DNA of 64,000 nucleotides from Serinicoccus sediminis (GTDB lineage Bacteria > Actinomycetota > Actinomycetes > Actinomycetales > Dermatophilaceae), in NCBI RefSeq assembly GCF_004153545.1, contig NZ_SDVA01000013.1, positions 1-64,000 of the forward strand, in the 5' to 3' direction. Position numbers and translations under genes: made by a program. A model generated the notes under the pieces. The model did no database searches and was not told the DNA's origin. It saw only the letters and a list, made by a program, of their open reading frames with translations. Below, piece after piece: positions 38,601 through 41,778 of this stretch; position 1 is the first letter of the stretch; each line of letters begins with the position of its first letter.

Positions 38601-38956
38601 GGCTGGTCGGTGTCCCGGGCCGGTCCGAGCGCCACGACGGCCAGCGCCTCGGCGTCGTCGAGGATCTCCGACAGGATCCACCACGCCCGGCCGTCGCGGG
38701 CCGCCAGCGCACCGGCCTCTCTCCACAGCAGCGCTACGTCGCGCCCGTCCCACAGCTCGCGCAGGTCCCGCAGCGCGTCGGCCATGGCGTCCAGGTTGGT
38801 GGACGCCGGCTCGGGCAGCCGCAGGGCCGCGCAGAGCTGCGCCTGCGTCTCCCGCAGCCCACCGCCGCGGGGTGTGGTGGCCTCGGTGACGGCATACCCC
38901 GACTGGGCGAAGTGCCCCTGGGCGTCCTCGAGACGCTCCGCCGGGAGGATGATCAC
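38597..38956 (-). CDS. Barstar-family ribonuclease inhibitor
   Basis: This encodes 119 residues. It has the barstar pattern: short beta start (IILPAERL), helix, then STNLDAMADALRDL (the conserved NLDA-DxL region that enters the RNase active site) and VALLWREAGAL..WWILSEIL. It should protect the cytoplasm from the RNase encoded next. The GTG overlaps the TGA of purB, and its own TGA overlaps the GTG of the RNase gene. Confidence 0.88.
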   Translation of the reverse strand: MIILPAERLEDAQGHFAQSGYAVTEATTPRGGGLRETQAQLCAALRLPEPASTNLDAMADALRDLRELWDGRDVALLWREAGALAARDGRAWWILSEILDDAEALAVVALGPARDTDQP

Positions 38957-40431
38957 GCGTCCCCCAGGTGCTCCACCAGCTGCGGCGCCAGCCCGACGTA
39001 GGTCGCCGGGGTCAGCGCCACCAGCCGCTCCTCCTCCTGCGCCGGCAGCCCCAGCCCCCGCACGAACTCCACCAGCTCGTCCTGCCCGATCCGGCGCCCG
39101 CGGGTGAGCTCCTTGAGCCGCTCGTAGGGGTTGCTCATCCCCTCCACACCCCGGGCCGCCAGCGCCCGCATGACCGACTGGACCGGCTCGGCGAGCACCT
39201 CCCAGTTGGCGTCGAGGTCGGCGGTCATGGCCTCCGGGACGGCGTCCAGCCCGGCGAGACCGCGGCTCACGTTGTCCAGCGCCAGAAGCCCGTGCCCGAG
39301 GGCGGAGCCGATGTTGCGCTGCATGGAGGAGTCGGTGAGGTCGCGCTGCAGCCGGCTGGTGACCAGGGTCGTGGCCAGCACGTCGAGCAGGGCGTTGCTG
39401 ACCTCCAGGTTGGCCTCGGCGTTCTCGAACCGGATCGGGTTGACCTTGTGCGGCATCGTGCTCGAGCCGACCGTCCCCTGACCGCGGACCTGCGCGAAGT
39501 AGCCCATGGAGATGTAGGTCCACATGTCCGTCGCCAGGTTGTGCAGGATGCGCTGGAAGCGCGCGACGTCGGCGTACAGCTCGGCCTGCCAGTCGTGGCT
39601 CTCGATCTGGGTGGTGAGCGGGTTCCACTCCAGACCGAGGTGCTCGACGAAGGAACGGCTGATCTGCTGCCAGTCCGCGCCCGGGACCGCCTCGACGTGC
39701 GCCCCGTAGGTGCCGGTCGCCCCGTTGAGCTTGCCCAGGTATGCCGCCCCGTCGACCCGGCGCAGCTGTCGCGTCAGCCGGTGCGCCAGCACCGCCAGCT
39801 CCTTGCCCATCGTCGTCGGCGTGGCCGGCTGCCCGTGCGTGTGCGCGAGCAGCGGGACCTCGGCGAGCTCGCGCGCCATGGCCGACAGCTGGTCGACCAG
39901 CGCGCGCGCCCGCGGCAGCCACACCTCCTGCACCGCGCCCTGCACCATGAGCGCGTACGACGTGTTGTTGATGTCCTCGCTGGTGCAGGCGAAGTGGATA
40001 AGCTGCCCCAGCGCGTCGGCCCTGGCGGTCCCCTCGGCGCTCCCGCCGCCGCCCTCGCTCCCGGCGTCCGCCCCGGCCAGCAGGTCGGTGAGCCGACCGC
40101 GCAGGAAGTACTCGATGGCCTTCACGTCGTGCACGGTCTCGGCCTCGATGACCTTCAGCTCGCCGATCGAGTCGGCGTCGAAGTCGACGACCAGCGCCCG
40201 CAGGGCCTCCTGCTCCTGCGCCGAGAGGCCAGGGGCGCCGGGCACCACCTCGTGCTCCACCAGGTGCAGCAGCCACTCCACCTCGACGTGCAGCCGCGCC
40301 CGGTTCAGCGCCGCCTCGGAGAGGTGGTCGACGAGCGGCGCGACCGCCCCGCGGTACCTCCCGTCCAGGGCACCCAGGGCGATGCTGGGGGAGAGCTCGG
40401 CGAGCGGCGTGCGGGCAGCGGGGAGCGGCAT
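38953..40431 (-). CDS. purB: Adenylosuccinate lyase
   Basis: This encodes 492 residues of the longer PurB class. ALGALDGRYRG, FACTSEDINNTSYALM, AHTHGQPATPTTMGKELA and the signature GSSTMPHKVNPIRFENAE are all present. It makes AICAR and AMP in purine synthesis. ATG 40431 is preferred over a frame to 40497 because homologues start near LAELSPSIALGALDGRY. CAAGAT six bases upstream may be a leaderless -10. Barstar and RNase genes follow in the same transcript. Confidence 0.96.
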   Translation of the reverse strand: MPLPAARTPLAELSPSIALGALDGRYRGAVAPLVDHLSEAALNRARLHVEVEWLLHLVEHEVVPGAPGLSAQEQEALRALVVDFDADSIGELKVIEAETVHDVKAIEYFLRGRLTDLLAGADAGSEGGGGSAEGTARADALGQLIHFACTSEDINNTSYALMVQGAVQEVWLPRARALVDQLSAMARELAEVPLLAHTHGQPATPTTMGKELAVLAHRLTRQLRRVDGAAYLGKLNGATGTYGAHVEAVPGADWQQISRSFVEHLGLEWNPLTTQIESHDWQAELYADVARFQRILHNLATDMWTYISMGYFAQVRGQGTVGSSTMPHKVNPIRFENAEANLEVSNALLDVLATTLVTSRLQRDLTDSSMQRNIGSALGHGLLALDNVSRGLAGLDAVPEAMTADLDANWEVLAEPVQSVMRALAARGVEGMSNPYERLKELTRGRRIGQDELVEFVRGLGLPAQEEERLVALTPATYVGLAPQLVEHLGDA

Positions 40432-40488
40432 ACGCCCATCTTGGCAGGGGACCGGCAGGACGCCGAACGGTGCGGCACACCGGTGTCC

Positions 40489-40534
40489 TGTCAACACGAC
40501 GTTGACAAGACGGTGATGTCAACATATTGTTGAC
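40489..40534 (+). promoter_or_regulatory. Leaderless promoter with two GTCAAC-N5-GTTGAC operators
   Basis: Two inverted repeats with identical arms lie at 40490-40506 and 40518-40534, centres 28 bp apart. The -35 TTGACA (40502-40507) is formed by the first operator and the -10 TATTGT (40525-40530) by the second, spacer 17. The ATG at 40537 is six bases after the -10. A repressor would cover both promoter boxes. Confidence 0.82.
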
Positions 40535-40536
40535 GC

Positions 40537-40827
40537 ATGACCTCCAGCACCGCCACGGCCATGGCTCAGGTCCGCCTCACCGCCGGCCTGAGCGCCATCG
40601 CCGTCGGTTTCGTCACCTTCTGGCTCAGCCGCGTCGTCGACTCCGGCTTCGTGCACGGCTTCTTGCAGGGCGCCACGCTGGCGCTCATGGTCGCGGGCGC
40701 CTACCTGGTCGGGGCCGCGGTGTGGCACCGACGCAGCCGGGGCCAGGTCGAGGACGACCGGCACTGGCTGCCCAGCCGCGACGGCGCCGGCGACGGGCCC
40801 GCCGCCGAGCACCGGGGCCCGCGGTGA
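40537..40827 (+). CDS. Small two-helix membrane protein
   Basis: This encodes 96 residues. Two membrane helices (about 14-29 and 42-63) are followed by a charged tail. The sequence LSAIAVGFVTFWLSRVVDSGFVHGFLQGATLALMVAGAYLVGA contains no domain I recognise. It is the first gene behind the double operator and starts on a leaderless transcript. Its stop overlaps the GTG of the HTH gene. Confidence 0.78.
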   Translation: MTSSTATAMAQVRLTAGLSAIAVGFVTFWLSRVVDSGFVHGFLQGATLALMVAGAYLVGAAVWHRRSRGQVEDDRHWLPSRDGAGDGPAAEHRGPR

Positions 40828-41423
40828 AACAGGCGCACGCCGAGGGCGACCTCGCCGCCCAGATCGGGCACATCATCCTCGACGAGGGACACGGGCCTGT
40901 CGGACACACGCTGGACGCCGACGACCACCTCCGCCTGGTGCGCCGCGCCGCGCTGGCCCACGAGGTCAGCGGCGAGCTCCTGCAGCAGGCGGTGACCGCC
41001 GCCCGCGCCGGCGGCCAGAGCTGGGCCACCCTCGGTCAGGAGCTGGGGCTGAGCAGGCAGGGCGCCCAGCAGCGTTTCGGTGGAGCCGGGCGTCGGACCA
41101 CGGCCGCCGACGACGCCGACGCCGACGCCGACACCGACACCGAGTCGCCGGAGCGTCGGGACGAGCGGTGGCTCGGTCCGGTCACCGCCGTCGACGAGCT
41201 GGGCGAGCTGGAGCTGGCCGGCCAGCTCGGTTGGCACACCGTCGAGGCCGGCATGTTCCGGCACCGGATGGTGCGGACCCCCACCTGCTGGGAGCACCGG
41301 CGGGTGCTGTGGACGCGCACCACCTCGAGCTACCTCGTCGACGGGTGGCAGGTGGGGGCCCGAGCGTTCCCCTGGCTCTATCTCGTGCGGGACACCGGGC
41401 GGCCGGTGGGCGACCCCACCTGA
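40824..41423 (+). CDS. HTH protein with conserved aromatic C-terminal domain
   Basis: This encodes 199 residues. The N-terminal half has a helix-turn-helix of the type AHEVSGELLQQAVTAAR..SWATLGQELGLSRQGAQQRF (about 45-90). An Asp-Ala-Thr repeat linker follows (ADADADTDTES). The C-terminal domain (DERWLGPVTAVDELGELELA.., WEHRRVLWTRTTSSYLVDGWQV, FPWLYLVRD) is rich in Trp and is of unknown function. GTG overlaps the TGA of the membrane gene. It is the obvious candidate to bind the double operator; that is inference. Confidence 0.78.
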   Translation: MKQAHAEGDLAAQIGHIILDEGHGPVGHTLDADDHLRLVRRAALAHEVSGELLQQAVTAARAGGQSWATLGQELGLSRQGAQQRFGGAGRRTTAADDADADADTDTESPERRDERWLGPVTAVDELGELELAGQLGWHTVEAGMFRHRMVRTPTCWEHRRVLWTRTTSSYLVDGWQVGARAFPWLYLVRDTGRPVGDPT

Positions 41424-41439
41424 GCCGCCGGCGGCGCGG

Positions 41440-41778
41440 TCAGCGCTTCTTGGCGTCCGGGTCGATCTCGTCGGCGCTCACGTAGTCGCCGGTGACGCGG
41501 TCGCGGTGCTCGCGGGCGATGCGGGTGGCCTCCTCGGCCTCCTGGTGCAGCTTGTCGGCGTGCTGCTGAGCCTCGCGCGCCTTGGCCTGCAGCTCGCGCG
41601 CCCGATCCTCCGCGCTCTGGGCGTACGACTCGCCCGACTGCGCCTTCTCGCGCAGCCCCGCCGCCTCCTCGCGGGCGGCCGCCAGCCGCTTGTTGCGGGC
41701 CATCACCGCCCAGACGGCCAGCGCCGCCACCACGACGACGGCGATGACGACGATCCAGACGATGGTCGAGGTGTCCAT
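41440..41778 (-). CDS. Membrane-anchored coiled-coil protein
   Basis: This encodes 112 residues. One membrane helix (6-26) is followed by a charged coiled coil (KRLAAAREEAAGLREKA through EEATRIAREHRDRV) and a short acidic-basic tail. It should have its tail in the cytoplasm. The function is unknown. The promoter overlaps the end of cydDC, so it can be made separately from that operon. Confidence 0.78.
   Translation of the reverse strand: MDTSTIVWIVVIAVVVVAALAVWAVMARNKRLAAAREEAAGLREKAQSGESYAQSAEDRARELQAKAREAQQHADKLHQEAEEATRIAREHRDRVTGDYVSADEIDPDAKKR

Follow-up and report, generated by a model that had tools for sequence, protein, structure and literature searches.

A probably autorepressed gene pair of the ClpC2/RelI helix-turn-helix family, with a membrane miniprotein partner, in Serinicoccus sediminis

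The described systems closest to the locus considered here are ClpC2, the RelS-RelI pair of M. tuberculosis and, by general plan, the LytTR regulatory systems. ClpC2 binds a pseudopalindrome, CGTCAAC-n5-GTTGACG, that lies 1-2 nt before its gene and has an upstream repeat in many of the analysed actinobacteria; the palindromes overlap putative -35 and -10 elements, and the promoter was judged to be leaderless. ClpC2 acts there as its own repressor, and cyclomarin A relieves the repression (PMC10030653). The C-terminal domain of ClpC2 (R185, R189) was proposed as its DNA-binding site, the R185A/R189A exchange weakening the binding; structures were solved for residues 4-72, a dimer, and for residues 94-252 (PMC10030653). 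In the literature that we found, binding to this type of operator is reported for ClpC2 only (PMC10030653). For RelS-RelI, according to the available text of PMC13284704, DNA binding was not in evidence, and the 1000 bp upstream contained neither inverted repeats nor other likely cis-acting elements; the paper also describes RelI homologues fused to 'DUF2812', typically as stand-alone genes. The LytTR regulatory systems are two-gene, autoregulated units of a DNA-binding and a membrane protein that work by positive feedback (PMC6193735).

The window, i.e. the whole stretch of DNA that was analysed, covers 64,000 nucleotides of Serinicoccus sediminis (contig NZ_SDVA01000013.1, positions 1 to 64,000). 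The unit under study is made up of the following features:

40490..40506, no strand: operator site 1, GTCAACACGACGTTGAC; its right arm is the source of the -35 element
40502..40507, plus strand: -35 element TTGACA, from an independent promoter scan
40518..40534, no strand: operator site 2, GTCAACATATTGTTGAC; the -10 element lies inside it
40525..40530, plus strand: -10 element TATTGT, 17-nt spacer from the -35, from the same independent scan
40537..40827, plus strand: gene 1, 96-aa membrane miniprotein with a predicted leaderless start at its ATG (open reading frame, hydropathy, family alignments)
40765..40782, plus strand: codons of the WLPSRD tail of gene 1, residues 77-82 (conservation in the family)
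40824..41423, plus strand: gene 2, 199-aa HTH protein with GTG start and C-terminal alpha/beta domain (open reading frame, structure model)
41022..41078, plus strand: HTH of gene 2, residues 67-85, helices 67-74 and 78-85 (model and profile match)
41163..41405, plus strand: C-terminal Trp-rich alpha/beta domain of gene 2, residues 114-194 (model)

A sequence-only reading of the window had pointed out two inverted repeats with identical arms and centres 28 bp apart, and indeed sites 1 and 2 are exact GTCAAC-N5-GTTGAC palindromes at that distance; only the start given for them, 40489, was one base early. That reading had also drawn the -35 TTGACA from the right arm of the first repeat and the -10 TATTGT from the second. 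An independent scan of positions 40400-41500 agrees: its one match is this sigma-70-like promoter (10 of 12 consensus positions), against a mean of 0.0 matches over 50 shuffles of the same region. The ATG of gene 1, at 40537, lies six bases past TATTGT as had been read, and because it sits where transcription is expected to start, the transcript is predicted to be leaderless. The overlap of the two genes by four bases was likewise correctly seen. On the minus strand a divergent adenylosuccinate-lyase-like gene (38953-40431; Lyase_1 1.2e-44, ASL_C 2.2e-40) has its probable ATG 58 bp from site 1, and its expression, too, could be influenced by the operator. A comparison of the neighbours of 21 loci for a third linked gene was blurred by shadow frames in the G+C-rich DNA.

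A search for other genomic sites of the same motif, which the earlier reading had proposed, returned the exact GTCAAC-N5-GTTGAC sequence at two places in the 3.55 Mb assembly (97 contigs), both of them in this promoter, and no further copy of the 12-base motif elsewhere in these contigs. The looser single site, GTCAA-N7-TTGAC, hardly differs from background: it has one further copy in this genome versus one for the reversed control, and in 17 other genomes the counts range from 0 to 3 (for those lacking a double site) versus 0 to 5 for the control. In nine further genomes of the genus with the unit, two sites are present at its promoter, and one of the nine has a single extra site. A chance or artefactual origin of the double site was considered and rejected, given the uniqueness of the motif in the assembly, the double sites of relatives, and the class scan with reversed control described below.

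Three sets of genomes were searched for relatives of gene 2: a set of 58, a set of 396 from the order (with a profile), and named genomes (27 loci). The relatives occur in Serinicoccus, Phycicoccus, Janibacter, Nostocoides, Nocardioides, Arthrobacter, Glaciihabitans, a record named Ilumatobacter, and others. From 67 examined rows we dropped 10 duplicates (identical in the last 300 bases of the gene), L073, which is the window again, having been excluded beforehand. Two exact GTCAA-N7-TTGAC sites lie upstream of 53 of the 57 distinct relatives, which include the window and many close kin, and the conservation of the operator before homologues of the 199-residue protein that the first reading expected is thus borne out. 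As for the remaining four, L092 has only 69 bp of upstream sequence, L027 and L100 have one exact site each, and L025, whose HTH gene has no membrane gene just upstream, has none. The centres of the 53 pairs are spaced by 28 bp (31 loci), 29 (13), 27 (8) or 30 (1), and this range of 27-30 bp corresponds to promoter spacers of 16-19 nt. An ATG or GTG follows the second site after 1-4 nt (2 nt in 34 loci, 3 nt in 17), the -35 reads TTGAC[A/G/T] throughout the 53, and 'TA' stands at the fixed position of the -10 core in 23 of the 53 second sites versus none of the 53 first sites. Both the spacing and the asymmetry of the sites match a promoter, on which the operator pair is built.

The same association is seen from the operator side. 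When 394 genomes of the class were scanned for two sites 9-14 bp apart, ignoring proteins altogether, 106 of them matched, and the reversed control scored 0 in all rows of the table; the double site stands clear of background. We examined 70 loci, 30 of them fetched and 40 chosen from the listed places before their genes were viewed. An open reading frame recognised by the HTH profile of the family lies downstream on the strand in 65 of them, in every case with an ATG or GTG 2-4 nt past the second site and a centre spacing of 26-29, and the 'TA' of the -10 is found in 58 of these second sites versus two of the first sites. The motif is therefore not mainly placed before unrelated genes, an outcome that would have told against the original reading. 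By script classes, plus three unsorted frames assigned by reading, the 65 comprise 55 ClpC2-type loci, seven of the gene 2 type (the window included), two with a ClpX-type zinc finger and one short HTH protein.

No HTH-family frame was found downstream in the other five loci (L119, L138, L160, L161, L163). In L119 a methyltransferase gene (Pfam 1.1e-16) starts 2 nt past the double operator (1501-1545), with no HTH. A frame with a PEP-utiliser domain (6.9e-25) lies 2 nt past the operator of L161, which also has a divergent FAD-binding gene (1.8e-18); the double operator of L160 is near a FAD gene that by eye resembles it. L163 has its double operator before a 176-aa frame near an MMPL transporter (3.1e-113). 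In three of the genomes of these four loci (G497, G457, G529) a ClpC2 gene is present too, behind a double site of its own, and ClpC2 might therefore act on further targets. In L138 a 421-aa frame begins 3 nt past the double operator; its HTH, if any, is unrecognised by the profile.

Gene 2 had been read as an HTH protein with a Trp-rich domain of no evident kind, and both halves of that description stand. Its structure model (mean pLDDT 86.1) has the two HTH helices, and the best solved relative of the HTH is RelI (PDB 9sdc_A; 3.1e-08 with the single sequence, 3.8e-16 with a profile), followed by the Rv2667 fragment of PDB 8ada, which is ClpC2 (0.0017, over the solved part). No solved fold matched gene 2 or its C-terminal domain at E <= 0.001, the best value being 0.76. 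Against Pfam, the C-terminal domain gave DUF4177 in three of 48 members (best E 0.0094; in L101, 13.3 bits versus a cut-off of 25) and DUF2812 in one of 48 (E 0.1), all below cut-off. A search for DUF2812 (PF11193) in 59 genomes of the order was uninformative, as it returned nothing there and nothing in 14 control genomes either. PADLOC holds no match to gene 2, and tblastn of gene 2 against a phage collection gave none; the HTH by itself resembles the phage HTH family phrog_686 (7.2e-07), as do that of a ClpC2-type protein (9.4e-08) and that of a zinc-finger type (5e-06).

The HTH profile of the family also finds ClpC2-type frames, mostly at 1e-9 to 1e-12, and the pattern V..AR..G.SW...G...G...QA.Q.RF is kept at 90% across 119 rows (a few loci appearing twice) from four architectures. 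ClpC2 and gene 2 are alike in a related N-terminal HTH, in the same, often doubled palindrome over the -35 and -10, and in a promoter judged or predicted to be leaderless. They differ in the C-terminal part, which in ClpC2 is a Clp_N domain that binds cyclomarin A (Clp_N scores 8.2e-18 in the ClpC2-type protein of L103), whereas gene 2 gave no Clp_N match, and neither Clp_N nor zf-C4_ClpX is among the 25 Pfam families listed for 48 members of its family; and the window unit opens with a membrane miniprotein gene. A ClpX-type zinc finger is fused to the same HTH in L112 (zf-C4_ClpX 2.5e-14), L117 and L040, of which L112 was tested with Pfam. The first two have a double operator in the form GTCAAG/CTTGAC, and no site was found within 1200 bp of L040; such fusions look like a ClpX counterpart of ClpC2. 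In L035 the HTH precedes a DUF3887-like domain (Pfam 5.7e-05, under the cut-off), with no exact operator within 1200 bp upstream.

RelS-RelI shares with the window unit the HTH and a two-gene order in which the HTH gene comes second. The double operator is found at some RelI-type loci too: among eight such loci of other genomes, five (L029, L030, L031, L036, L037) have two exact sites upstream, two (L028, L034) have one, and L038 has none. In L029, L031 and L036 a GTG 2-3 nt past the second site opens a 78-aa partner frame, and three partner frames match BrnT_toxin, all under the curated cut-off (L031 4.9e-08, L029 3.8e-06, L034 0.0022). RelI itself differs from gene 2 in being only about 85 aa long, with no comparable C-terminal domain, and in having a soluble RNase rather than a membrane protein as its partner; gene 1, with two hydrophobic segments and no Pfam match, does not resemble a RelS-like RNase. 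The RelI-DUF2812 fusions of actinomycetes, which like gene 2 join the HTH to an unplaced domain, may be of the same kind as gene 2 by this architecture; they are described as typically standing alone, the available text of PMC13284704 mentions neither the operator seen here nor a membrane partner, and the identity of the gene 2 domain with DUF2812 is only hinted at by the weak match above.

For gene 1, hydropathy, the only criterion applied, shows two hydrophobic segments, at residues 12-28 and 42-58, which fits the two-helix membrane protein proposed from the sequence. A frame of 73-106 aa takes the place of gene 1 in 50 of the 53 loci with an exact pair, and 47 of these 50 have exactly two such segments by the same criterion. 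In L093, L094 and L099 the operator is present and the HTH gene has no membrane gene ahead of it. Across the family the membrane segments vary and the tail is conserved. In an alignment of 34 members W77 and P79 are invariant, and L78, S80 and D82 are kept in at least 90%; W[LIR]P[ST] occurs near the C-terminus of 44 of the 50 frames, WLPSRD itself in 35, and four proteins (L050, L055, L059, L060) carry WLP twice. The six frames with no W[LIR]P[ST] are L101 (WRPA) and L072 and L095-L098 with an LD.LEPL-type tail, the class of L098 depending on the reading frame chosen; the latter tail is also found on three Streptomyces plasmids. The 76-aa frame ahead of the L027 gene has no WLPSRD-like tail. 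Searched with a profile of the membrane family, 392 genomes gave 17 strong matches, all adjoining an HTH gene, and two weak ones (2.4e-6, 2.9e-6) that do not. Gene 1 has no match in PADLOC, PHROG or Pfam; the 34 family members gave weak and scattered matches to Pfam and NCBIfam (best 0.00018, TIGR04222, in five members), and no family of these two collections clearly covers the protein. The string WLPSRD was absent from the open-licence papers searched.

A full-length relative of gene 2 is present in 11 of 31 genomes of the genus, and further relatives, annotated as hypothetical proteins, are carried by three Streptomyces and two Deinococcus plasmids. Two exact sites precede the plasmid loci L193, L194 and L195; of the two sites of L196, one is exact and the other differs at one position. 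In L192, on a plasmid of Deinococcus sp. QL22, three sites 28 bp apart are followed by a very short frame and then by the HTH gene. Gene 1 is annotated, with 93-95 aa, in L193, L194 and L196; in L195 a short hydrophobic protein is encoded by an unannotated frame past the sites (by eye).

The main rival to a membrane-relieved repressor is a toxin-antitoxin pair, in which the miniprotein would be a growth-inhibiting membrane toxin, and the HTH protein would serve as its antitoxin and repress the pair, on the model of RelS and RelI. The HTH, the double operator and the partner-first gene order are all as in RelS-RelI type loci, the strong membrane-family matches always adjoin an HTH gene, and the unit is patchily distributed and found on plasmids too. 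Against it, the start region of the same divergent neighbour gene lies upstream of the unit in several genomes of the genus (by eye), so that there the unit seems to have a stable chromosomal place, PADLOC does not recognise it, and variable membrane segments with a conserved tail suit a binding peptide; we regard the toxin-antitoxin reading as unlikely. LytTR systems offer another model, since they share with the window unit the plan of an autoregulated DNA-binding protein with a small membrane partner (PMC6193735), and a membrane partner is present and conserved beside the gene 2 family; gene 2 would on this model be an activator held back by the membrane protein. LytTR proteins, however, have their own DNA-binding domain, for which Pfam gave no match in gene 2 and its family, an HTH being present instead, and they act by positive feedback from direct repeats just upstream of the -35, whereas the repeats here are inverted and lie over the -35 and -10, an operator from which ClpC2 represses. 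We consider an activator very improbable.

Other doubts concern which protein, or which part of it, reads the operator. The palindromes might belong to an unrelated regulator with gene 2 merely nearby, and the few double sites before HTH-less genes (L119, L160, L161, L163) could be taken that way; yet operator and HTH associate in both directions, in 53 of 57 cases starting from the protein and 65 of 70 starting from the operator, and in two phyla, and most of those exceptions come from genomes with a ClpC2 that has a double site of its own. We give this explanation the least credit of all. It is also very improbable that the C-terminal part reads the DNA, as proposed for ClpC2 R185/R189, with the HTH region serving for dimerisation alone. 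The reduced binding of R185A/R189A and the dimeric 4-72 fragment (PMC10030653) speak for this, and the exchange argues for a role of the C-terminal domain in DNA binding by ClpC2 that an HTH reader leaves to be explained. Four kinds of protein that share the HTH (ClpC2, the ClpX-zinc-finger fusion, the RelI types and the gene 2 family) nevertheless stand behind the same operator with otherwise different parts, so from sequence the HTH is the likely reader, more so than the C-terminal domain. Moreover, the solved ClpC2 chain (8ada) ends at residue 72, just before a helix predicted at 74-81, the position expected of a recognition helix, in the model of the ClpC2 relative of L103.

We therefore favour the reading of a unit of the ClpC2/RelI HTH family that represses itself and is released from repression by way of its membrane partner, and put the probability of this reading at about 0.68. 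The autorepressor step taken alone is, on comparative grounds, highly probable; the repressor part is strong by comparison, and the membrane part is what we infer. A dimer of the 199-aa protein would bind each GTCAA-N7-TTGAC site through its N-terminal HTH, as suggested by the HTH and operator that it shares with the family. So bound, it would block RNA polymerase, since the -35 is overlapped by site 1, and site 2 extends over the -10 and ends close to the predicted leaderless start; repression of this kind is published for ClpC2. The C-terminal domain would be the sensor: on binding its partner, the protein would leave the DNA, and more of both proteins would be made. The partner here is most likely the co-transcribed membrane miniprotein, acting through its WLPSRD tail as ligand or tether, and the tail is probably cytoplasmic, as suggested by the hydrophobic segments and nearby basic residues. 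A membrane change, or an excess of free miniprotein, would then set the level of the unit.

What points to a contact between tail and C-terminal domain is conservation, and adjacent genes are inherited together anyway. The tail types (WLPS versus LD.LEPL) are clustered on the gene 2 tree, with 4 and 2 changes against shuffled means of 16.2 and 7.6 (L098 was labelled by hand, and the label for no membrane gene was also given to L027, L092 and L100, which lack an exact pair and whose membrane gene was unscored); because linked genes are co-inherited, we do not count this clustering in favour of contact. The earlier view of a self-contained, autoregulated unit is well supported by the ClpC2 precedent (PMC10030653) and by the two-way association, i.e. 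an operator conserved before homologues and not mainly placed before unrelated genes. Where that view has to be amended is the operator type, which is not new: ClpC2 already provides both this operator and its fusion with a promoter judged leaderless (PMC10030653).

The operator block and the HTH being of known kinds, what is new is an HTH protein whose C-terminal domain could not be placed and whose partner is an undescribed membrane miniprotein ending in WLPSRD. Neither this pairing, nor the tail motif, nor an operator common to the several architectures was found in the open-licence literature searched. More tentatively, the HTH module and its promoter-operator block might form a portable circuit to 'sense your own target', fitted with varied partner-binding parts: a ClpC domain (the drug sponge), a ClpX zinc finger, a toxin partner, or the WLPSRD membrane miniprotein. 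Binding of the partner would pull the repressor off the DNA and so yield more decoy or partner. Were this so, the window unit would be the membrane-sensing version, a new two-protein report of attack on the membrane.

The analysis links the ClpC2 drug sponge, the RelS-RelI toxin-antitoxin pair and an unnamed membrane-protein/HTH pair, which had been described apart; this last pair occurs in many actinomycetes and is plasmid-borne in Deinococcus. It predicts that the DNA-reading part of ClpC2 is the stretch missing from both solved fragments, and that some RelS-RelI relatives are autoregulated. It also defines a family of membrane miniproteins whose short conserved tail looks like a docking peptide.
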